Positions 1 through 32,913 of a stretch of 32,913 bases of DNA are shown piece by piece. The stretch is from a virus: the IMG/VR virus record IMGVR_UViG_3300044691_000539, positions 1 through 32,913 of that record; one strand, given 5' to 3'. Position numbers and translations under genes: made by a program. Numbering within the stretch: the first letter of the stretch is position 1; each line of letters begins with the position of its first letter. The notes below the pieces were generated by a model. It had not been told where the DNA came from. It searched no databases and saw nothing but the letters and a program-made list of their open reading frames with translations.

Positions 1-153
1 GGTGGCGGCGGTGGTGGTGGCGGCGGAGGCGGTGGCGGAGGCGGTGGCGGAGGCGGCGGAGGCGGTGGCGGAGGCGGTGGCGGAGGCGGTGGAGGTGGTG
101 GCGGAGGCGGTGGCGGAGGCGGAGGTGGTGGAGGCGGAGGCGGTGGTGGTGGC
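1..153 (+). repeat. GGTGGCGGAGGC-type short tandem repeat
   Basis: This stretch consists only of GGN triplets (51 in a row) built from imperfect copies of a 12-base unit GGTGGCGGAGGC with 6-base sub-units. In one frame it would be a run of glycines that ends at TGA 181-183. In the next frame it reads as Val-Ala-Glu-Ala repeats with every third base a G, and that frame stays open through the following non-repetitive coding sequence to 307. The plus strand is G-rich with runs of GG, so quadruplex formation and copy-number slippage are possible. The window edge cuts it. Confidence 0.9.
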
Positions 154-307
154 GCGCCTAGCCCTACGTCCGACGCTCGATGAAGCCTGGGCCGCATCGG
201 TCGCCGTCCTGGACGACGCGATGAAGATCGGCCGTCAGCCTGAAGCCGTCGATCTTGCCGACATCAAGCTGCGCTTCGACACCGTCCGTCAGAAGGTCTC
301 TGCGTGA
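2..307 (+). CDS. C-terminal end of an Ala/Glu/Val-repeat protein (partial)
   Basis: Only the C-terminal part of the gene is in the window. The first ~50 codons are a low-complexity Val-Ala-Glu-Ala repeat. They are followed by about 50 ordinary residues (TLDEAW...DTVRQKVSA) that look helical and charged. Third positions in the non-repeat part are nearly all G or C, which supports this frame as coding. The stop (TGA 305-307) overlaps the next ATG (307) as TGATG, so it belongs to the downstream operon. I do not recognise the family. If the repeat is instead translated as polyglycine, a one-base frame change inside the repeat would be needed to reach this C-terminus, so a sequencing or assembly slip in the repeat is an alternative. 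Confidence 0.5.
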   Translation: MAAVVVAAEAVAEAVAEAAEAVAEAVAEAVEVVAEAVAEAEVVEAEAVVVARLALRPTLDEAWAASVAVLDDAMKIGRQPEAVDLADIKLRFDTVRQKVSA

Positions 308-915
308 TGGGGGCCTGGGGCCCCGGCGAGCTCGTAGCCTCCGGTCTCGCTGCGCCGGGGCCCCAGGCTGCTCGTGCGTGCAATCCCGATCCGTTTGCGC
401 GCGACCTGTTTTCCGAGGGCGCCCCTTGGAAGGCGGTCTCCCTCTGGCAGCCGTGGGCGTCCCTGATCGCGCGCGGGGTCAAGACTTGGATCACGCCCCT
501 TTGGGAACATCCCTACCGCGGGCCGATCGCCATCCACGCCGCGCGCATTCTCGACGTCGCCAGCTCGCCGGACGATCTGTGCATGTCGGCGCTGGGCGTC
601 ACCTGGACGTCGGACCTGCCCCACAGCGCCGTGGTGGCCGTCGCCGACCTGGTGGAGATCCTGCCGGCGCCGGACGTCGTTCCTCGCCTGACACACGCCG
701 ATCGGGCCGCCGGCAACTTCGCGCGGGGCCGTCACGCCTGGCTGCTGGCCAACGTCCGTGCCCTTCGTCGGCCGATCCCCACGCCGGGGCGGCAGGGCTT
801 GTTCAACTGGCATGCGCCGGAGGACCTATACGTCCGTCTCGGCCCGGTTCTCGACACCCTGGCGCTGAGCCATCAGATCGGCTGGGGGCGCATGAAGCGG
901 GTGCTCGATGCGTGA
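307..915 (+). CDS. ASCH (PUA-like) domain protein
   Basis: A protein of about 202 residues. After a ~40-residue N-terminal extension it shows the ASCH/PUA-like start (WKAVSLWQPWASLIARGVKT), then YRGPIAIHAA, a central VVAVADLVEI strand and a C-terminal QGLFNW segment. This pattern fits phage ASCH-domain proteins. ASCH domains are small beta-barrels related to PUA domains, thought to bind RNA or modified nucleotides; one bacterial member is an N4-acetylcytidine amidohydrolase. The exact substrate here is unknown. ATG 307 overlaps the upstream stop, so translation is probably coupled. The long extension before the first ASCH strand is unusual and hints that the domain could also be started internally, but no better start is obvious. 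Confidence 0.75.
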   Translation: MGAWGPGELVASGLAAPGPQAARACNPDPFARDLFSEGAPWKAVSLWQPWASLIARGVKTWITPLWEHPYRGPIAIHAARILDVASSPDDLCMSALGVTWTSDLPHSAVVAVADLVEILPAPDVVPRLTHADRAAGNFARGRHAWLLANVRALRRPIPTPGRQGLFNWHAPEDLYVRLGPVLDTLALSHQIGWGRMKRVLDA

Positions 916-924
916 GGCCGCGAC

Positions 925-1512
925 GTGACCCAGCGCTTTCCCCTAGCCTGGCCGGCCGGCAAGCCGCGGACCGGGTCGCTCTATCGTAAGCGCGGCGCCT
1001 TCAAGGCGGATGGGCGGAACATCACGGTCGACCGCGCCTTCCAGCGGATCGACTACGAACTCGACCGGATCGGCGGCAAAAACCCGTTGGTCTCCTCCAA
1101 TGTCGAGCTGCGTGTGGATGGCCGGCCGAGAATGGATCGCTCGCCGCCCAGCGACCCGGGGGTCTGCCTTTACTTCGACCTGGGCGGCAAGCCGCATGCC
1201 CTGGCCTGCGACGCCTACGAGACCGTCGCTCAGAACCTCGCCGCGATCGCCGCCCACCTCGAGGCGACGCGCGCGATCTCCCGACATGGCGTCGCAACGG
1301 CCGCGGAGATGTTCACGGCGTTCGTTGCGCTGCCCCAGCCCAAGACCTGGCGAGAGATCTTCGGGCTGTCAGCCCGCGCCAGAATGGTCGACGTCGAGGA
1401 CGCATGGCGGCGGCTGGCCGCCTCCAACCATCCAGACCGCGGCGGTTCGCACGCCCTGATGGCTGAACTCAACGCGGCGCGCGACGCCGCCCGAAAGGAG
1501 CTTGGATCATGA
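925..1512 (+). CDS. J-domain-like phage protein
   Basis: 195 residues from a GTG start, preceded by GAGG at 914-917. The C-terminal ~55 residues (about 140-195) look like a J domain. They have WREIFGL, a helix AWRRLAASNHPDRGG with the diagnostic His-Pro-Asp motif at residues 169-171, and a final helix ELNAARDAARKEL. J domains recruit and stimulate Hsp70/DnaK ATPase. Phage-encoded ones are thought to redirect the host chaperone during replication or head assembly. The N-terminal ~120 residues resemble the body of many alphaproteobacterial phage J proteins (RNITVDRAFQRI) but have no function I can name. The stop overlaps the next ATG (1509) as ATGA. Confidence 0.75.
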   Translation: MTQRFPLAWPAGKPRTGSLYRKRGAFKADGRNITVDRAFQRIDYELDRIGGKNPLVSSNVELRVDGRPRMDRSPPSDPGVCLYFDLGGKPHALACDAYETVAQNLAAIAAHLEATRAISRHGVATAAEMFTAFVALPQPKTWREIFGLSARARMVDVEDAWRRLAASNHPDRGGSHALMAELNAARDAARKELGS

Positions 1513-1616
1513 ACGCCGGCGCACGCCGTGATGATGCGTTTGCTCAGGCCTGCAGCGCCGCCGGCGGCTTTCAGGTCTTGTCGCCCCCCCCCCCGTTCCT
1601 CTGGAGGGTGGGGTGA
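1509..1616 (+). CDS. 35-residue ORF with C11 tract, possible 5' part of next gene
   Basis: A 35-codon frame starts at an ATG that overlaps the stop of the J-domain gene (ATGA) and ends at TGA 1614-1616, overlapping the GTG start of the next gene. Overlap at both ends matches the operon's style, so it is probably translated. It carries four proline codons inside an 11-C homopolymer (1584-1594). Adding one C, or losing two, would place the frame directly into the ParB-like gene. It may therefore be either a true micro-protein or the displaced N-terminus of that protein. The family is unknown. Confidence 0.45.
   Translation: MNAGARRDDAFAQACSAAGGFQVLSPPPPFLWRVG
1584..1594 (+). repeat. C11 homopolymer
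   Basis: Eleven consecutive C residues lie inside the small ORF at 1509-1616 and just before the ribosome-binding site (GGAGG, 1603-1607) of the ParB-like gene. Runs this long are prone to polymerase slippage, to transcriptional slippage and to sequencing error. Confidence 0.95.
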
Positions 1617-2509
1617 GCTTCGCGCGCGAACTCGCACCATTGCCCATCCTCGGATCCGGCCTGGAGAGCATCCTGCGTCCTATCGCGGCGCTGGCCACCG
1701 CAGGCCTCACTCCGGGCCTTGTGGAGTCGGCCACTCCAATCTTCGAATGGGTCGCGCCCACGGTCCTGAAGGTCGACGAAAGCTATCAGCGCCACCTGTC
1801 GGACCGCTCGCTGGCGCTGATCCGCAAGATCGTCACGCAATGGGATTGGCGGCGCTTCAAGCCACCGGTTGTGGCCCGGATGGGCGAGGACCTTGTCGTG
1901 GTTGATGGGCAGCACACCGCGATCGCCGCCGCCTCGCATCCTGACGTCGCTCAGATCCCGATCATGATCATCCTGGCTGAAGCGCGCGCAGACCAGGCGC
2001 AGGCTTTCGTCGGCCACAATCGCGATCGCCTCAACATCACGCCGATGCAGCTGCACTTCGCAGCGCTGGCCAGCGGTGAAGAGGACGCGCTGACCATCGA
2101 CCAGGTCACCGAGCGCGCCGGCGTCCGGATCCTGCGCTGCACTCCTGCCGGCGGGATCTTCAAGCCACGCGAGACGGTGGCGGTGAACGCTATCGCCGCT
2201 CTCATCAATCGCCGCGGCGCCCAAAAGGCCCGCATCGTGCTGCAGATCCTCGCCGAGGCCGAGGCCGCGCCCGTCGCATCCAGCCAGGTTAAGGCCGTCG
2301 AGATGTTGCTGCACGACGGCGAGTACCGTGGCCAGGTCGAGCCGGCGGACATCGTGTCGGCGCTGCGGACGTGGGGCCTTGGCGCGGCTGAACAGGAGGC
2401 TCGAGTCTTCGCTGCCGCCCACAACGTGCAGATCTGGCGGGCATTCGGTGTCGTGGTCTTCAAGCAGGCTCGGCGCCATGCCCGGCGCCGGAGCGGCGCG
2501 GGCGCGTGA
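1613..2509 (+). CDS. ParB/sulfiredoxin-fold (DGQHT) protein
   Basis: 298 residues from GTG 1613, with GGAGG six bases upstream. Residues ~50-110 show a ParB N-terminal/sulfiredoxin-like core: VLKVDESYQR, then RFKPPVVARM and VVVDGQHT at 95-102. The DGQHT signature is typical of phage and plasmid ParB-like/DGQHR proteins, some of which have nuclease or nucleotide-binding activity. The remaining ~190 residues are helical (QAFVGHNRDRLNITPMQLHFA) and resemble the partner domain seen in such phage proteins. No ParB helix-turn-helix is obvious. It is more likely a nuclease-like or replication-associated protein than a partition protein. Its stop overlaps the next start (TGATG at 2507-2511). Confidence 0.7.
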   Translation: MSFARELAPLPILGSGLESILRPIAALATAGLTPGLVESATPIFEWVAPTVLKVDESYQRHLSDRSLALIRKIVTQWDWRRFKPPVVARMGEDLVVVDGQHTAIAAASHPDVAQIPIMIILAEARADQAQAFVGHNRDRLNITPMQLHFAALASGEEDALTIDQVTERAGVRILRCTPAGGIFKPRETVAVNAIAALINRRGAQKARIVLQILAEAEAAPVASSQVKAVEMLLHDGEYRGQVEPADIVSALRTWGLGAAEQEARVFAAAHNVQIWRAFGVVVFKQARRHARRRSGAGA

Positions 2510-2817
2510 TGGCCACTGACGACGAGCGCCTGATGAACCTGCGCGGGGACCTCCTTCAGGCGTGCCATCGTGGCCTGCTGGACGGGTGCACGCTCGTCGA
2601 CACGCTCTCCTGCTTTGGCGCCGTGATCGCGGAGATGGCGATCGCCGGCGGCTTTGAGGACGTCACGCCGGTCCTCATCGCGGTCAGCGGCGCAGCCCGA
2701 GGCTGTTTCCCTGAGGCGCGGCGCAGGGCGATGCGCGGCGTGGAAGGGCGTGAACGCGCCCGATCGGAATCCGAGGTCTACCGCTCCGGCGTGGCGCGGC
2801 TCAGGGGTGTCCGATGA
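2509..2817 (+). CDS. hypothetical operon protein, 102 aa
   Basis: ATG 2509 overlaps the upstream stop; an in-frame GTG one codon earlier is the other choice. The protein is mostly helical: an acidic start, a middle segment CTLVDTLSCFGAVIAEMAIA that could pack as an amphipathic helix, and an Arg-rich C-terminus (RRRAMRGVEGRERARSE). No catalytic motif or membrane segment is clear, and I do not recognise the family. Its place in an unbroken overlap chain with the next gene (ATGA at 2814) is the main support that it is expressed. Confidence 0.6.
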   Translation: MATDDERLMNLRGDLLQACHRGLLDGCTLVDTLSCFGAVIAEMAIAGGFEDVTPVLIAVSGAARGCFPEARRRAMRGVEGRERARSESEVYRSGVARLRGVR

Positions 2818-3065
2818 ACGAGGCCGGCCGTATTGCGCAGGGCGGGACCAACCAGGGAACCTGGGATCTGCCCTTCGAGCTGGCCATCGCCTGCTCGAGT
2901 TCGGTGTTCACCGGCGTGGTGCGCGATCGCGCACGGCGAGGGATCTTCCCGGTCGGGCCGGCCAAGGTCACCGCCCATGGCCGCCAGCTGGTGGCCAGCG
3001 TCCCCTACGCCCACGGCGACGTCTTCTTCGCTCTAGACGTCGAGCTGCAGGCGCTCCGGCCGTGA
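2814..3065 (+). CDS. hypothetical operon protein, 83 aa
   Basis: Begins in an ATGA overlap with the upstream gene and ends in a GTGA overlap with the next. It looks like a small beta-rich domain (FTGVVRDRARRGIF, KVTAHGRQLVASVPY, GDVFFALDVELQAL). No known signature is seen. The alternating hydrophobic pattern and G/C-rich third positions support a real, folded product. Confidence 0.6.
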   Translation: MNEAGRIAQGGTNQGTWDLPFELAIACSSSVFTGVVRDRARRGIFPVGPAKVTAHGRQLVASVPYAHGDVFFALDVELQALRP

Positions 3066-3319
3066 CGGAGTGGTCGAAGCTCGCCCGCGCGACGATCGCC
3101 CGCGTCCACGCGGAGTTGCCGAAGGACGCGACGCTCACGCAGCGCAAGCGGGCGGTCGACGCCGCCTACCCGTTTAGCGTTCGCGAGATGTGGCCCTACA
3201 AGGCCTGGCTCAAGGCGCGGAAGGCCTACCTCGTGCAGTACGGCTACGGCCCGCCGCTTCCGCTCACGGCGCTGGACCTGCTTCCCCGAGATCCCGTCAC
3301 CGGAAGGCCGGTGATCTGA
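3062..3319 (+). CDS. hypothetical phage protein, 85 aa
   Basis: Chosen start is GTG 3062, overlapping the upstream stop as GTGA; longer in-frame extensions upstream are out of keeping with the operon. The sequence (TEWSKLARATIARVHAELP, then VREMWPYKAWLKARKAYLVQYGYG) resembles small basic proteins often found near the ends of early operons in alphaproteobacterial phages. It is probably an all-helical nucleic-acid-associated protein, but no function is established. The stop is directly followed by the next ATG (3320). Confidence 0.6.
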   Translation: MTEWSKLARATIARVHAELPKDATLTQRKRAVDAAYPFSVREMWPYKAWLKARKAYLVQYGYGPPLPLTALDLLPRDPVTGRPVI

Positions 3320-3574
3320 ATGGCCTGCACCGTCGTCACCCTGCCGACTGGCGGCCGAGCGATCGTCTGCGGCGCCCGGCGCGCCAAACCGCACTGCGGC
3401 TGCGGCGCGCCGGCCGGGCTGCTGTGTGACTGGAAGGTCGGCCCTGGAAAGGCGACCTGCGATAAGCCGATCTGCGCGGCCTGTTCGGTTAGCCCGGCGC
3501 CCGGCAAGGATCTTTGCCTGATCCATGCCGCGGATTGGGAGGCCTGGAGAGCAAATCGGGCGACGAGGACATGA
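3320..3574 (+). CDS. Cys-rich putative zinc-binding protein, 84 aa
   Basis: Starts immediately after the previous stop and ends in an ATGA overlap with the excisionase-like gene. It has nine cysteines in 84 residues plus histidines, arranged as HCGCG, LLCDW, ATCDKPICAAC and DLCLIHAADW. This spacing fits one or two zinc-binding knuckles. Similar small Cys-rich proteins occur in phage early operons and are assumed to bind nucleic acid or protein. Zinc binding is inferred from the cysteine pattern only. Confidence 0.65.
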   Translation: MACTVVTLPTGGRAIVCGARRAKPHCGCGAPAGLLCDWKVGPGKATCDKPICAACSVSPAPGKDLCLIHAADWEAWRANRATRT

Positions 3575-3816
3575 GCGCCGCGTGGCCTCGCCTCATGCGC
3601 ACCCCGACAGCCCGGCGCTATCTCGACGGCCTGGATCCGCTGCTCGAGTTCGGCGCCACGCCGCAGTTCCACAAGGGCGAGCCCTACTTCGATCGGGCCG
3701 AGCTCGACCGCCTGGTCGACGGCGCGCGGGAATCCTCCCCTCCTATGGGCGATGATCCCGACTCCGCGCTCGCCAACTGGATCGAGAGCCATGGCGCCGC
3801 TGAACGGCGTCCATAG
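3571..3816 (+). CDS. excisionase-like small DNA-binding protein
   Basis: Start ATG 3571 was chosen for the ATGA overlap, giving 81 residues. The segment RTPTARRYLDGLDPLLEFGATPQFHKGEPYFDRAELDRLVD reads as a MerR/excisionase-type winged helix: an N-terminal helix, a turn, then a basic-aromatic wing and a final helix after YFDRAELDRLV. It lies immediately upstream of the integrase and overlaps it by 26 bases, the usual position for a recombination directionality factor. Role as excisionase is inferred from position and fold pattern; it could equally regulate the operon. Confidence 0.6.
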   Translation: MSAAWPRLMRTPTARRYLDGLDPLLEFGATPQFHKGEPYFDRAELDRLVDGARESSPPMGDDPDSALANWIESHGAAERRP

Positions 3817-4903
3817 GGTCAGGAAGACCAACCGCAGCGGGCGCGCCGAGTATTGGTACGCCTGGCGCGGCGGGCCTTGCATCCTGGCGGAGAGCGCCAC
3901 GACTGACAGGATCCTGGACCTGAAGGTCAGCGCGGCCGCCGCCGACGCCGGCCGGCGCTACTTCGAGATCCAGGAGGCGCGCAAGTCGGCGCCCAAGGAC
4001 ACCGTCCTCGAGCTCGCCAAGCAATGGCAGGCGAGTCCGGAGTTCAAGCAGGGTCTGTCGGCCAGGACGCAGAAGGATTACCGCCGCGCCCTCGCCATCG
4101 TCGAGGTCGACCTCGGGACCATGCCGATGAAGGCGCTGAAGGCCGACGGCGCCCGCGCCGCCCTATTGGCCTGGCGCAACCGCTACGCGGCGACGCCGGC
4201 GAACGCTGACCAGTACGCCGGCGCGATGTCGAAGCTCCTGGGCTGGGCCCGCGACCAGGGGCTCACTTCGGCCGACCCAATGCGAGACTGGCCGTGGATC
4301 TATCACCCCGACAGGTCGGACATCGTCTGGAAGGCGGGAGAGATCGAGACTGTCTGCGCCGCCGCCGGCGGCGACCTGGACCTGCAGCTGGCGATCCTGC
4401 TGGCCGCCTATTCCGGCCTGCGCCAGTGCGACCTGATCAAGCTCACCTGGTCGGCCGTCGGCGAGAAGACGATCGTGCGCCGGACCAGCAAGCGCGGCCG
4501 CGTCGTACACATCCCGCGGACGCCGGCGGTCAACCAGGTGCTTGAGGCCTGCAAGGCATTCGCCGGCGGCGAGACGGATGAGAAGCTGGAGGCGCTTACC
4601 GTCCTCACCCGCAACGGCAAGCCCTGGAAGGCCACGACCCTGAACAAGGCCTGGAACAGCGCCAGGAAGCGCGCGATCGCCAAGCTCCCAAGCATCAAGG
4701 GAAAGCGCTGGCATGATCTGCGCGGGACCTACGCCACGTCGCTCCACCGCGACGGCTACGAGGACGACGAGGTCGACCGGATCATGGGCTGGAAGAAGGG
4801 CAACTCCGAGCAGACCCGCGCCGCCTACGTCGCCGGCGATGTCGTCGCCCACACCGCGATCGCCCGCGCCGCGCGTCGGGCGCAGGTCGCCCAAGCCGCC
4901 TGA
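3791..4903 (+). CDS. int: tyrosine recombinase (phage integrase)
   Basis: 370 residues from ATG 3791; an upstream in-frame ATG at 3752 would overlap the previous gene much more and adds unconserved sequence. The N-terminal ~175 residues hold an arm-binding/SAM-like region (SARTQKDYRRAL, then AMSKLLGWARDQG). The catalytic domain follows with R211 (GLRQCDLIKLTW), a lysine near 234, H308-x-x-R311 (RWHDLRGTYATSL), W334 in the second histidine position (GWKKGNSEQTR) and the nucleophile Y346. All expected residues are present, so it should be active. It would recombine the adjacent attP (core about 4998-5036) with the bacterial tRNA-Ser gene. It is the last gene of the plus-strand operon. Confidence 0.93.
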   Translation: MAPLNGVHRVRKTNRSGRAEYWYAWRGGPCILAESATTDRILDLKVSAAAADAGRRYFEIQEARKSAPKDTVLELAKQWQASPEFKQGLSARTQKDYRRALAIVEVDLGTMPMKALKADGARAALLAWRNRYAATPANADQYAGAMSKLLGWARDQGLTSADPMRDWPWIYHPDRSDIVWKAGEIETVCAAAGGDLDLQLAILLAAYSGLRQCDLIKLTWSAVGEKTIVRRTSKRGRVVHIPRTPAVNQVLEACKAFAGGETDEKLEALTVLTRNGKPWKATTLNKAWNSARKRAIAKLPSIKGKRWHDLRGTYATSLHRDGYEDDEVDRIMGWKKGNSEQTRAAYVAGDVVAHTAIARAARRAQVAQAA

Positions 4904-4997
4904 CGGTTTACACCCCAACAGCTAAGTCTTTGAGATCGCTACAGGTGGAATTGAGCTGGTTTACAGCTAGGTCGTTGACGCTGCTGCACTGCGCTGT

Positions 4998-5036
4998 TTT
5001 AGCAAACCGTTGCCTTCAGCCACTCGGCCACGTCAC
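4998..5036 (-). other. attP core: 5' half of a tRNA-Ser(GCU) gene
   Basis: Read on the minus strand, this segment gives a tRNA-Ser start: GGTGACG acceptor strand, the D-arm GGCCGAGTGGCTGAAGGC, then an anticodon 5' stem ACGGT and loop TTGCTAA with anticodon GCT. The match stops just after the loop; no 3' anticodon stem, variable arm or T-loop (GGTTCGAATCC) follows. It is therefore a tRNA fragment, not a working gene, as expected for a phage attachment core that is identical to part of the host target. Confidence 0.78.
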
Positions 5037-5047
5037 CTTGTTGAAAA

Positions 5048-5066
5048 CGCTCCGGTATTCGGAGCG
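5048..5066 (+). other. hairpin downstream of attP core
   Basis: Perfect 7-base arms CGCTCCG/CGGAGCG enclose the loop GTATT. There is no T-run after it, so it is a poor intrinsic terminator. It may end integrase-operon transcription weakly or be part of the attP architecture. Confidence 0.45.
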
Positions 5067-5236
5067 CCCTCTATCCCAGTTTACAGCCGGTTTACAATCG
5101 GCCCCCGCTGGGACCGCGCGGTTTCTAGCTGAGCTAGCGGCGGGCGCCTAGGCCTCTCGCCACGCGGCGCCGCGAATCACAAACCGAAGGGCCCGGCTGC
5201 AAGTTCTCGTCTTGTTCTCTTCGAGCTCGGAGAGAT

Positions 5237-5455
5237 ATGTCTGGCGGCATGGCCAATCGTTTCCCGCCGCCCTGGACCGTCCGCCACAACGACGACGCCT
5301 ATTGGGTCGAGACCGCCAACGGGATCCGGTTCGCCTACATCTACTTCCGCGACCCGCCGGTCGTGGGCACCGGTCCCGAGCGTCCGACGCGGGACGAGGC
5401 GCGGCGGATCGCGGCGAACATCGCCAGGCTGCCCGAGCTCCTGAAGAAGCCCTGA
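5237..5455 (+). CDS. conserved small alphaproteobacterial protein, 72 aa
   Basis: ATG 5237 has GGAGAG about eight bases upstream; an in-frame ATG at 5249 (MANRFPPPW) is an alternative. The pattern (RFPPPWTVRHNDDAYWVE...RFAYIYFRDP...TRDEARRIAANIARLPELL) belongs to a small protein type that is abundant in Rhizobiales and Caulobacterales chromosomes and their mobile elements. No function is known to me. It stands alone between attP and a convergent gene. Because the family is common in host genomes, it may be cargo picked up near the attachment site. Confidence 0.75.
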   Translation: MSGGMANRFPPPWTVRHNDDAYWVETANGIRFAYIYFRDPPVVGTGPERPTRDEARRIAANIARLPELLKKP

Positions 5456-5459
5456 TACG

Positions 5460-5483
5460 AAAAAAGCGCCCCCGGCCGGAGCC
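5460..5483 (-). terminator. possible intrinsic terminator for the endonuclease gene
   Basis: Reading the minus strand, a G+C-rich hairpin around GCTCCGGCCGGGGGC (5482-5468) is followed by CGC and six T residues (5465-5460). It lies beyond the stop of the minus-strand gene at 5537 and just after the stop of the plus-strand gene at 5455, so it is well placed between convergent genes. The stem contains a G-T pair, so strength is uncertain. Confidence 0.5.
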
Positions 5484-5536
5484 AGGGACGCAGGGGTGGC
5501 GGTGCACTTTGGTGCTTGGTCAGCAGCTGGTGACGA

Positions 5537-7340: not shown

Positions 7341-7694
7341 TCAAGGCATCACCGGCGCAACGAGCGCGCCGGCGGCGAGGCCGGCGGGGCCCTTGGTGAT
7401 CGCGGCGTCGATCACCTTGCGCGCGCCCTGCGGGTCGATGATCACGCGGTTTCCCGCTTGCATCTCCTCGCAGGTCCGGACCATCGCCTTCAGCTGATCG
7501 ACGGACATCTGGGTCTTGGTGTCGGCCGAGGCGACGCGGTCGACCTGGTCGGCGCACTTCATGGTCGGCTCGATACCGGCCCCGATCGGCTTGAGCGTGG
7601 GAATCAGGGCGGTGTTGAAGGCGCTGAGCCCGGCGCAGCCGGACAGGGCGAGAGCCGCGGCGCCGATGAGGGCCGCGGACAGGATCTTGGACAT
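7341..7694 (-). CDS. small lipoprotein in lysis cassette
   Basis: 117 residues from ATG 7694, with GGAG upstream. The N-terminus is a lipoprotein signal ending in the lipobox LSGC (Cys20). The mature part has two more cysteines (KCADQ, RTCEEM) and helices (SVDQLKAMVRTCEEMQAG). Being next to the endolysin, it could serve as an outer-membrane spanin subunit, but outer spanins are usually shorter and Pro-rich, so this is tentative. It would sit in the outer-membrane inner leaflet. Confidence 0.65.
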   Translation of the reverse strand: MSKILSAALIGAAALALSGCAGLSAFNTALIPTLKPIGAGIEPTMKCADQVDRVASADTKTQMSVDQLKAMVRTCEEMQAGNRVIIDPQGARKVIDAAITKGPAGLAAGALVAPVMP

Positions 7695-7717
7695 TGGGAT
7701 CTCCAGGATGGGCCCGG

Positions 7718-8272
7718 CTATGCGGGCGGGTTGGGGATGGCGGGTTTGGCCAGGCCGCGCTCGCAGAAGGCGCGCTCCTCGGCGCGGCGGGCGACCAGGC
7801 CGGGCACCACGACGTAGCGGGGCTTGCCGTTCGGCAGGACGCCAGAGCGGACGTAAATCCACTGCGGGCGTCCGTCGTCGCCAGTGTTCAGCTGGCGGCA
7901 GGCGCCGGCGAGGTCGCCGGCGTTCAGGTGGCTCACGATGCCCGAGCTGCAGAACGCGCCCGAACCCTCGTTGAAGGCGAAGCTGGTGAAGGCCGCGCGG
8001 CTTTCGGCCGGGACCGGCACGCCGATGCAGCCGTCGATCGCCATGCCCTTCTGCACGGCGTCGCCGGCCAGGTACTGCATGCACTGCTCGAGGGTATAGC
8101 GGCGGCCGATCACCGCGCCTTCGGTGTGGCCGGCGCAATCGGTGGGGATGCCGCCCACGTCGGGATAGCCGACCGGCTGCACGCCCTCCCACTTGCCGAT
8201 CAGCGGCACGGCGATCGCCACGGCCGCCAGCACGGCGGCGACCCGGGCGACGGCGGGATTGATCGCGCTCAT
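7718..8272 (-). CDS. SAR-type endolysin (GH24 lysozyme)
   Basis: 184 residues from ATG 8272, which overlaps the holin stop as ATGA. The N-terminal segment (residues ~5-25, PAVARVAAVLAAVAIAVPLI) is a weakly hydrophobic, Ala-rich span typical of signal-anchor-release domains. Directly after it comes the T4-lysozyme/P21-type catalytic triad: E29 (GKWEG), D38 (YPDVGG) and T44 (IPTDCAGHTEG), with the canonical E-8-D-5-T spacing. The enzyme cleaves the glycan strands of peptidoglycan after Sec export and release of the span from the membrane. Several extra cysteines could control activity by disulphide exchange. Confidence 0.88.
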   Translation of the reverse strand: MSAINPAVARVAAVLAAVAIAVPLIGKWEGVQPVGYPDVGGIPTDCAGHTEGAVIGRRYTLEQCMQYLAGDAVQKGMAIDGCIGVPVPAESRAAFTSFAFNEGSGAFCSSGIVSHLNAGDLAGACRQLNTGDDGRPQWIYVRSGVLPNGKPRYVVVPGLVARRAEERAFCERGLAKPAIPNPPA

Positions 8273-8469
8273 CGGGCCGCAGGCTCTCCGGCAGGCGACC
8301 TCGCCTCCCGGGTCCACTTCCAGATCAGGTGGGCGGCGCTGATCAGCGTGTAGATGATGCCGACGACCGCCACCCACTCGTTGAGGGTCAGGCCATAGAT
8401 GATGGCCGGCGGCGTGAGCTTGAGGCCTGCGACGCCGAGATCGTGCGTCACCTGGTGGTGGTCAATCAT
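8269..8469 (-). CDS. putative holin, 66 aa
   Basis: ATG 8469 has AGGA about eight bases upstream. One clear membrane span (EWVAVVGIIYTLISAAHLIWKW) lies in residues ~31-52, followed by a charged tail. A weaker hydrophobic stretch precedes it (PPAIIYGLTL). It overlaps the endolysin by ATGA. With an SAR endolysin, a pinholin that depolarises the membrane would be expected, and this protein is the best candidate in position and size. Confidence 0.65.
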   Translation of the reverse strand: MIDHHQVTHDLGVAGLKLTPPAIIYGLTLNEWVAVVGIIYTLISAAHLIWKWTREARSPAGEPAAR

Positions 8470-8526
8470 CGAATGGATCCTGCGGGCTTACTTGAGGGCG
8501 GCGGCGATCGCCGCGGCGGGCGGCGT

Positions 8527-8619
8527 TCAGCGGAGCGCGGCCGCCAGGACGAGCCACGTGACCAGCACGAGCCCCGCCATGGCCGGTCCGTAGGCGCGCA
8601 GCCAATCGCGCCGGGTCAT
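8527..8619 (-). CDS. 30-residue membrane micro-protein
   Basis: A 30-codon frame starts in an ATGA overlap with the upstream gene (ATG 8619-8617) and ends at TGA 8529-8527. It has a basic N-terminus (MTRRDWLRAYG) and a single hydrophobic helix (AMAGLVLVTWLVLAAALR), giving a clear N-in membrane topology. It lies just upstream of the holin and may be an antiholin or part of the lysis control. The stop-overlapping start and hydrophobic design are the support. Confidence 0.55.
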   Translation of the reverse strand: MTRRDWLRAYGPAMAGLVLVTWLVLAAALR

Positions 8620-8870
8620 GCCGCCGTCGTGGCCGGCGCGGAAATGGCGGCGGTGAGCAGCTGCTGGGTCATGTTGAGGGCCAGCTGCGTCTGCGCGAAC
8701 GCCTGGGATTGGAGCGCCTGGCCGGCGGTCACCAATTTGTTCTGGGCGGCGAGCATGTCGGCGAGCCGGTTCTGGCCGTAGGCCGCGTAGAGCTCGATGC
8801 GGTCCTGGTTCGAAAAGGGCGCGGTCATGCCCATGCGCTGCGCGAAGACGAGGAACGTCGCGTCATCCAT
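8616..8870 (-). CDS. hypothetical protein, 84 aa, before the lysis genes
   Basis: ATG 8870 has GGAG eight bases upstream. The protein is helical and Gln/Ala-rich (NRLADMLAAQNKLVTAGQAL, QSQAFAQTQLALNMTQQLL) with heptad-like spacing, so a coiled coil is possible. There is no membrane segment. It is the first gene of the lysis cluster after the acyltransferase interruption. The family is unknown to me; similar small proteins sit between tail fibre and lysozyme genes in other alphaproteobacterial phages. Confidence 0.6.
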   Translation of the reverse strand: MDDATFLVFAQRMGMTAPFSNQDRIELYAAYGQNRLADMLAAQNKLVTAGQALQSQAFAQTQLALNMTQQLLTAAISAPATTAA

Positions 8871-8942
8871 GGTCGGGTCTCCGGAAATAGGATTGCGCGT
8901 TCCGGATGTGCCGGTGGCGCGGTTTATGCTTAGGGTTGAGGG

Positions 8943-9923
8943 ATGGGGCTGAAGTACGAGCCAGCACTGGACGGCCTGCGGGCCATCGCCGCGACGATGG
9001 TCCTGCTGCACCACGCCCACGTCCCCGGTTTTGCGGGCGGCGGTCGCGGAGTCGACGTGTTCTTCGTTCTGTCGGGCTACCTGATCACCAATATCCTGGT
9101 CTCGGAGGCCCGGGCGACGGGGCAGATCGACGTGACTGCGTTTTGGCTGCGCCGCGCGAGACGACTGGTCCCCGCACTGATCGCCGTCATCCTTGTGTCC
9201 GGCCTTCTGGTGAACCAGTTCCCCCCGGAAGAGGTCCCTCGCATGGGCGCGGCCATGTTGTTCGCCGCCACCTATACGACGAACATTGCGAGTTGCATGG
9301 GCTTTGCGTTGACGCCGCTGTCCCACACATGGACGCTGGCGCTCGAAATGCAGTTCTACCTGATCTGGCCGTTCGTTGTCGGCTTCGTCGCAAAGGTACG
9401 GCGGCCCGCTGTCGCGCTGTTCGCGGCATGGATTGCGGTCACGGCGACATCGGGCGCGGTCGGCCAATTACCAACCCTCAAGGCCTTCCAGTGGCTTTTC
9501 AGCGTAGGCCCGTTGATTTTTGGCTCGGCGCTTGCCTTCACGCCTCCGATGAGGCCGGCGATCGGTTGGTTGGGGGCGACCATCGTCCTGGCTATGACGT
9601 TCGTGCCGAGCAGCCTTCGACCGCAACTCCTGAACCACCTTCCGCTCCTGGATATGGGCGCTGGAATGCTGATCAGTTCGCTCTCTCACGATTATCGCCT
9701 GTCTCGCGCACTGGGTTGGGCGCCGCTAGTCTGGCTGGGCGCGATCTCCTACGGGATTTACCTCTGGCACTTCCCGATCCTAGAGGTGCTCCGGGGCCAG
9801 GGCTGGCAACTTCGCGTGCTGGTCGCCGCGCCACTTTCCATCGCCATGGCGCGGCTCTCCTATCTCACGGTCGAGACGTGGGGCCGCGCAATAGGCCGAC
9901 GTCCAGCCGCTGAATTGGGCTGA
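8943..9923 (+). CDS. OafA/YrhL-type acyltransferase (acyltransferase 3 family)
   Basis: 326 residues from ATG 8943 with AGGG upstream. It begins with the family motif YEPALDGLRAIAATMVLLHH, followed by GGGRGVDVFFVLSGYLIT and the LRRARRLVPAL segment. The HTWTLALEMQFYLIWP motif and about ten hydrophobic spans continue to the end (GAISYGIYLWHFPIL). These integral-membrane enzymes transfer acetyl or other acyl groups to surface polysaccharides, often changing O-antigen. It is alone on the plus strand within the leftward late region, typical of a moron expressed in lysogens. The product may modify host LPS to block related phages. It is slightly shorter than many family members (~350-380) but includes both ends. 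Confidence 0.9.
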   Translation: MGLKYEPALDGLRAIAATMVLLHHAHVPGFAGGGRGVDVFFVLSGYLITNILVSEARATGQIDVTAFWLRRARRLVPALIAVILVSGLLVNQFPPEEVPRMGAAMLFAATYTTNIASCMGFALTPLSHTWTLALEMQFYLIWPFVVGFVAKVRRPAVALFAAWIAVTATSGAVGQLPTLKAFQWLFSVGPLIFGSALAFTPPMRPAIGWLGATIVLAMTFVPSSLRPQLLNHLPLLDMGAGMLISSLSHDYRLSRALGWAPLVWLGAISYGIYLWHFPILEVLRGQGWQLRVLVAAPLSIAMARLSYLTVETWGRAIGRRPAAELG

Positions 9924-32099: not shown

Positions 32100-32293
32100 C
32101 GGCGGGATGGCTTCCAGACTCGAGTATCGGTGTTTCGGCAGCCGTCGCCGCGGAGGCGGCCGGCCATTCGGCGCAGGCGCTTGGCGGCCTCGTCCTTCAC
32201 CAGGTGAAAGCGCTCGGGGTCGCCATGAAGCAGCGCCAGGCGGTTGACCAGGTCGGCGATGGCGTCGGCCTCGGCCGCCTCGTCCTGGATCAC
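32096..32293 (-). CDS. hypothetical protein, 65 aa
   Basis: GTG 32293 overlaps the recombinase stop as GTGA and its own stop overlaps the glycosyltransferase ATG. Sequence: IQDEAAEADAIADLVNRLAL, then LLHGDPERFHLVKDEAAKRL and RRMAGRLRGDGCRNTDTRVW. It is helical with a basic C-terminus. No family is recognised. The two-sided overlap argues that it is translated. Confidence 0.6.
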   Translation of the reverse strand: MIQDEAAEADAIADLVNRLALLHGDPERFHLVKDEAAKRLRRMAGRLRGDGCRNTDTRVWKPSRR

Positions 32294-32913
32294 AGGCCCA
32301 CCTTGCCGGCGGCATTCCGGCGAAACCGATCGACCGACTGGATGTAGCCGGCCGTGGTGTCGAACTTCGCGTGTCGCGCGTGCGCCTGAAGGACGTCGGG
32401 CGCCGCGCCCTTCTCGGCGGCGCTGGTCAGCAAACCGCTGCGCAGCGAGTGGCCGGCGAACGCTGCGGGATCCAACCCCGCGCGCTGGCAGGCCGCCTTC
32501 ACGACGTTGGCGACCGTCTTGTCGGAAATCGCGGCGCCGGAGATCCCGCCATGCCGGTCGATGGCCCGGAAGATGGGGCCCGAGGTGATCGCCGCGGCGG
32601 CCAGCCAAGCCTGCAGCGCGGAGACCGCGCAAAGCTTGCGGCCATAGGGGATGGCGACGATCGCGCCGTTCCCCGTCTGGTCGCCCTTCGACCGATCCAG
32701 GTGGACCTCGAGGCCGGCGGCCACGAAGACGGCGCGGACCGAACCTGCGCCGTCGCCCTCCAGCGTCAGCGCGGCGAGTTCCGAGCGGCGCAGCGCGCCG
32801 GTGAAGCCCACCAGCAGGATCGCCCGATCGCGAATCCCTGTGCGGGTCGCCGGAAGCTTGGCGATCGCGCGGCGAAGGTCCTCGGTGATCAGCGCCCGCT
32901 TCTTGCGCGGCGG
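32290..32913 (-). CDS. second tyrosine recombinase (partial)
   Basis: The gene runs off the right edge; 207 residues of the C-terminal catalytic domain are visible. Motifs: FTGALRRSELAAL with the first catalytic Arg, HLDRSKGDQTGNGAIVAIPY with the beta-strand Lys, AGHSLRSGLLTSAAEKGAAP (His-x-x-Arg), HARHAKFDTTAGYIQSVDRF with the second His and the nucleophile Tyr. All residues of an active XerC/D-like enzyme appear present. It lies first in an operon with the glycosyltransferase and DUF3164 genes, far from attP. It differs clearly from the integrase at 3791-4903, which has Trp in place of the second His. Confidence 0.85.
   Translation of the reverse strand, partial: PPRKKRALITEDLRRAIAKLPATRTGIRDRAILLVGFTGALRRSELAALTLEGDGAGSVRAVFVAAGLEVHLDRSKGDQTGNGAIVAIPYGRKLCAVSALQAWLAAAAITSGPIFRAIDRHGGISGAAISDKTVANVVKAACQRAGLDPAAFAGHSLRSGLLTSAAEKGAAPDVLQAHARHAKFDTTAGYIQSVDRFRRNAAGKVGL

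Follow-up and report, generated by a model that had tools for sequence, protein, structure and literature searches.

Gene content and attachment region of the window phage

The window, by which we mean the whole stretch of 32,913 bases analysed here, is a linear IMG/VR virus record that lacks end repeats and has siphovirus-like gene content. The terminase, portal, protease, capsid, and tail genes lie on its minus strand, and its left part holds a ParB-like gene and the gene of a 383-residue tyrosine integrase (3752–4903, plus strand; Pfam PF00589, E=1e-13; PHROG integrase, E=5e-33), in which the catalytic residues R224, K247, H321, R324, and Y359 are recognisable by inspection. The core of interest begins 94 bp past the integrase stop codon, with HNH and structural genes to its right. 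Read on the minus strand from 5037 to 4998, it is GGTGACGTGGCCGAGTGGCTGAAGGCAACGGTTTGCTAAA, the first 40 nucleotides of a tRNA-Ser(GCT) gene. The first 39 of these cover the gene from tRNA position 1 up to and including the 7-nt anticodon loop, and the anticodon GCT occupies positions 5003–5001. The 3' half of the tRNA is missing from the core, and neither a complete tRNA nor an Rfam tRNA match was found in the window. The original prediction had recognised this core as the 5' half of tRNA-Ser(GCU); the 40-nt identity to a host gene confirms the assignment, and the end it gave (5036) proved one base short of 5037.

Four copies of the motif GTTTACA accompany the core on the plus strand (4906–4912 and 4959–4965 on the integrase side; 5079–5085 and 5090–5096 on the other arm). 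A motif count found no further copies in the entire window, where 0.3 would be expected, and all four fall within 100 bp of the core, one pair to either side of it. The repeats look like arm-type integrase sites, and we treat them as candidates on the strength of their number and placement.

The closest comparison was provided by a sister record, G003 (IMGVR_UViG_3300005537_000018; 39,042 bp), which carries 120-bp terminal direct repeats. Its integrase is 77% identical to that of the window, the identical 39-mer stands at the same place, and window positions 4955–5151 are about 79% identical to it. The GTTTACA motifs recur there, and motifs and core are conserved between the two phages. The DNA match to G003 (69–78% identity) covers the integrase–attachment module (window 1–5046) and 32145–32904, reaching both window ends, and no match was found for the structural genes of the window that were compared with G003. 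Judged by these alignments, the two are mosaic phages. From the layout relative to G003, the window would lack roughly 8.7 kb; part of the genome appears to be absent from the record. Relatives of the integrase among GenBank phages and PLSDB plasmids are all below 32% identity, and the genome scan for close relatives gave a single distant match, in a Caulobacterales MAG.

Host tRNA gene and predicted integration products

When the core was aligned with the tRNA-Ser gene of a Caulobacterales MAG, identity began at tRNA position 1, with none upstream of it, and stopped one base past the anticodon loop. The divergence originally placed immediately after the loop is therefore located correctly to within a base. 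Within three mismatches, the 39-mer was found once per genome in 47 of the 299 Caulobacterales genomes, and in 13 of the 299 the match was exact; the gene is single-copy. The search against host tRNA-Ser genes that had been proposed thus returned a target. Since a reversed-pattern control of the 39-mer gave no match among the genomes listed, an exact match of 39 nt is far beyond chance.

Integrase relatives were present in 112 of 398 Caulobacterales genomes (E≤0.001) and in 10 of 385 genomes of a spread sample of the class, the latter count resting on the stricter cutoff of E≤1e-15. Because the attB match lies in Caulobacterales and related integrases are common in this order and rare in the class sample, the host of the window phage is likely, though not proven, to belong to it. 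No prophage with the window-phage integrase at tRNA-Ser, nor its attL or attR, was found in the genomes scanned, and we infer the use of tRNA-Ser(GCT) by this phage from the core and its matches.

In silico joining of the window and host flanks produced one complete tRNA-Ser with phage DNA upstream and no complete one on the other side. The regeneration of a full tRNA at one junction, a test of which had been suggested, and the replacement of the promoter-proximal part of the gene, which had been anticipated, are borne out by this construct. In the scheme that we propose, the tyrosine integrase would recombine within the anticodon loop of the host tRNA-Ser(GCT) gene. The probable crossover (overlap) region is the loop itself, TTGCTAA (4999–5005, minus strand), since homology stops just past it and relatives behave similarly: in G018, G175, G323, and L009, the common segment likewise runs across the loop and stops inside the 3' anticodon stem. 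After integration, the host promoter would remain at the integrase-side end with nothing more than a 5' half. At the far end, phage DNA would precede a complete tRNA-Ser in which the phage supplies the 5' half and the host the 3' half. Transcription of the host's sole tRNA-Ser(GCU) gene would then have to start from a phage-side promoter.

A different integrase was seen at the same gene. In record L004 (IMGVR_UViG_3300025236_000009, 7587–9000), it directly adjoins a complete tRNA-Ser(GCT) on its 3' side, the 5' half of this tRNA being the same as in the window, and a conventional 3'-type element thus appears to target this gene as well.

Integrated relatives

The Caulobacterales integrase relatives were inspected together with their flanks. 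Four related prophages have one end at which phage DNA precedes a full tRNA and another at which host DNA precedes a 5' half. In G323, at tRNA-Thr(TGT), the 5' repeat measures 46 nt and is about 39.8 kb away; in G018 and G175, both at tRNA-Gly(CCC), 40-nt 5' repeats are 37.5 and 9.3 kb away, respectively; and in G122, also at tRNA-Gly(CCC), the 5' half is about 30.6 kb away. Each of the four genomes yielded a single complete gene for the targeted isoacceptor, together with a single 5' half. The comparison of attL and attR that had been suggested was thus informative at both ends of four relatives, the window phage itself contributing none.

Other members of the family show parts of the same picture. 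In the phage record L009, the 5' half next to the integrase gene is that of tRNA-Thr(TGT). In G152, a 5' half of tRNA-Gly(TCC) adjoins both the integrase gene and a host tRNA-Tyr, and the sole full tRNA-Gly(TCC) gene that matches it sits close to the beginning of a different contig. In G206, G242, G210, G372, G358, and G176, the repeats proved to be of the conventional 3' kind. Two further candidates were dropped as confirmed 5' types because no 5' half was found at the far end. One is G765, in which the 5' end of a tRNA-Leu faces the integrase gene. The other is G117, where two complete tandem tRNA-Trp(CCA) genes, about 83% identical, were observed (contig C16, 10013–10501), the 5' end of the nearer one facing an integrase relative; the search for its 5' half covered the next 60 kb.

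Promoter and transcription

Bacterial tRNA genes have external promoters, and an element carrying the 5' half therefore takes over the transcription of the gene. Native tRNA-Ser loci have a conserved upstream promoter resembling TTGCGC-N17-TATCCA, the −10 box of which ends about 11 nt before the tRNA. This promoter lies wholly outside the shared segment, so that integration cuts the gene off from it. In the window, the DNA that would come to lie upstream of the rebuilt tRNA, where a promoter is expected, is 5038–5151 (minus strand). Neither a consensus scan nor a matrix of the native tRNA-Ser promoter recognised one there, nothing upstream of the half tRNA scoring above shuffled sequences.

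Two of the relatives gave a different result. In the phage DNA ahead of the rebuilt tRNA, G122 has TTGCGT-N16-TATCCG and G175 has TTGCAA-N18-TATCTG, both at the native distance from the tRNA. Scored against shuffles, the near region gave p<0.01 for G122 and p of about 0.03 for G175, and the wider 110-bp region gave 0.01 and 0.09, respectively; these values are rough, since the −10 boxes of the Caulobacterales tRNA-Ser loci from which the matrix was built were assigned by a simple rule. The matrix found nothing convincing near the tRNA in G323, G018, L009, G003, or the window.

An intrinsic terminator-like hairpin (5466–5491, minus strand) would halt the minus-strand transcripts of the structural genes before they reach the attachment site, and G003 has a similar hairpin upstream of the site on the same strand. 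Read-through from the structural genes is therefore unlikely as the source of tRNA transcription, and we infer that the window holds a promoter between the hairpin and the half tRNA. A 72-residue open frame (5237–5455, plus strand), divergent from the half tRNA, occupies the space between the attachment region and the hairpin; it has no NCBIfam match. On the other side, no terminator-like site was seen between the half tRNA and the 3' end of the integrase gene (4903–4998, minus strand), so that transcription through the half tRNA would enter the integrase gene antisense.

Assignment of the half tRNA

We consider it very probable that the core is the attP of a temperate siphovirus-like phage, the integrase of which recombines in the anticodon loop of the host tRNA-Ser(GCT) while the phage carries the 5' half. 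The regeneration in silico, the 39-mer of G003, and the same outcome in the chromosomes of four relatives support the half tRNA as the putative attP of the window phage, with the 5' half as the shared stretch, and uphold the attP reading of the original prediction.

The record might instead be the edge of a prophage, the half tRNA being a displaced fragment in a host chromosome (attL or attR), as its linear form without end repeats would allow and as displaced 5' halves beside the integrase gene in lysogens such as G175 illustrate. We judge this very improbable and reject it on the gene content of both sides and the terminal repeats of G003. Phage genes flank the core (the integrase and ParB-like genes to the left, the HNH and structural genes to the right), and a host-type tRNA promoter is absent upstream of the half tRNA. 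The same core at the same place in G003, with conserved flanks on both sides and 120-bp terminal repeats, argues that it is an attP and not a prophage border.

Slightly less probable still is a tRNA-dependent lysogeny of the Fionnbharth kind, in which the phage disrupts the host tRNA on integrating and substitutes a separate and complete tRNA gene of its own. Such lysogeny is known in some phages with tRNA attB sites (PMC10865867); these share only about 10 bp with the host, whereas the core here is 40 nt and regenerates the tRNA. A complete phage tRNA of the same isotype is absent from the window and from the whole 39-kb G003, for which reason this explanation was rejected. Equally remote is a transcribed fragment with a role of its own, as a decoy or regulatory RNA: a 5' tRNA half would indeed be transcribed if a phage promoter existed (none was found), but the core stands beside the integrase gene with arm-like repeats flanking it and a boundary just past the anticodon loop, and integrated relatives show the same arrangement with other tRNAs.

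Comparison with known systems

With the attP assignment, the window phage offers a genuine case of an arrangement that is known but uncommon. The original assumption that the 3' part is what most tRNA-targeting elements carry agrees with Islander, in which 159 of 3919 islands have a 5' tDNA fragment and 3760 have a 3' fragment; a site class centred on the anticodon loop is also recognised there (PMC4383910). As in the 5'-fragment islands, the tRNA would be restored with element DNA upstream and a 5' fragment left behind; here, unlike in the islands, the arrangement is seen not only in chromosomes but also as attP in phage records, and the integrase family includes both polarities.

The pTN3-like archaeal integrases also use the tRNA 5' half, and it is the integrase promoter that drives the reconstituted tRNA (PMC8371274, PMC5495485); according to an archaeal review, the use of the 5' half is seldom met in bacteria (PMC8371274). 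In both cases the 5' half is common to attP and attB, and reconstitution leaves the tRNA without its original promoter. However, pTN3 is an archaeal plasmid with its attP inside the integrase gene, which is split upon integration, whereas in the window phage the attP lies outside the gene, which stays whole.

Among bacteriophages, the mycobacteriophage Boilgate shares a 3' half through a 43-bp core (PMC10865867). Phages of this type resemble the window phage in their tyrosine integrase, a core of about 40 bp from the anticodon region, arm-type sites (candidates in the window), and restoration of the tRNA, but they carry the opposite half and keep the native promoter, which would be lost in the window layout. 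With Fionnbharth-type phages, the window phage would share the reliance of the lysogen on phage DNA for an essential tRNA; those phages, however, break the gene and bring in an entire tRNA, whereas here the gene would be rebuilt from two halves. If tRNA-Ser(GCU) is single-copy and needed, as expected, the lysogen would depend on the phage-side promoter, and prophage deletions removing that promoter should then be lethal.

Polarity switches in the integrase family

In a tree of 59 integrases, eight were called as the 5' type, and well-supported branches force at least three changes of polarity upon these eight; integrases lacking mapped far ends were labelled by the orientation of the tRNA, and several of the terminal branches are long. 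All four possible layouts occur within one clade of seven (support 99/98). The window and G003 have the 5' half with its anticodon end facing the integrase gene; G323 and L009 have the 5' half with the tRNA 5' end facing it; G001 and G358 are of the 3' type with the full tRNA at the integrase gene; and G206 is of the 3' type with the fragment there. Far ends in this clade were mapped for G323, G358, and G206, and no far-end repeat was found for G001 up to the contig end. Elsewhere in the tree, G175 (5' type) neighbours G372 and G130 (3' type), all at tRNA-Gly(CCC).

On the simplest reading, the near-symmetric anticodon stem-loop is what the enzyme needs, and the half carried along may change freely. 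A broader proposal, which we put forward as a speculation that may well be wrong, is that this alphaproteobacterial family reads only the stem-loop, so that half and facing flip freely; that 5' types gain tRNA-like promoters again and again, so that single-copy host tRNA genes come to be transcribed from the phage side; and that in the window layout the displaced host promoter would, after integration, read antisense into the integrase gene, possibly as a brake on the integrase.

The interleaving of 5' and 3' types in one integrase family is less expected than the 5' type itself. No account of repeated polarity switching inside one such family was found in the literature searched, most subscription journals lying outside it. 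The Caulobacterales offer natural pairs of related integrases that use opposite halves of the same tRNA, as G175 and G372 do at tRNA-Gly(CCC), and such pairs make the origin of polarity switches and the gain of tRNA promoters by elements testable. The ends of 5'-half elements would be put in the wrong place by prophage end finders that look for a 3' fragment.
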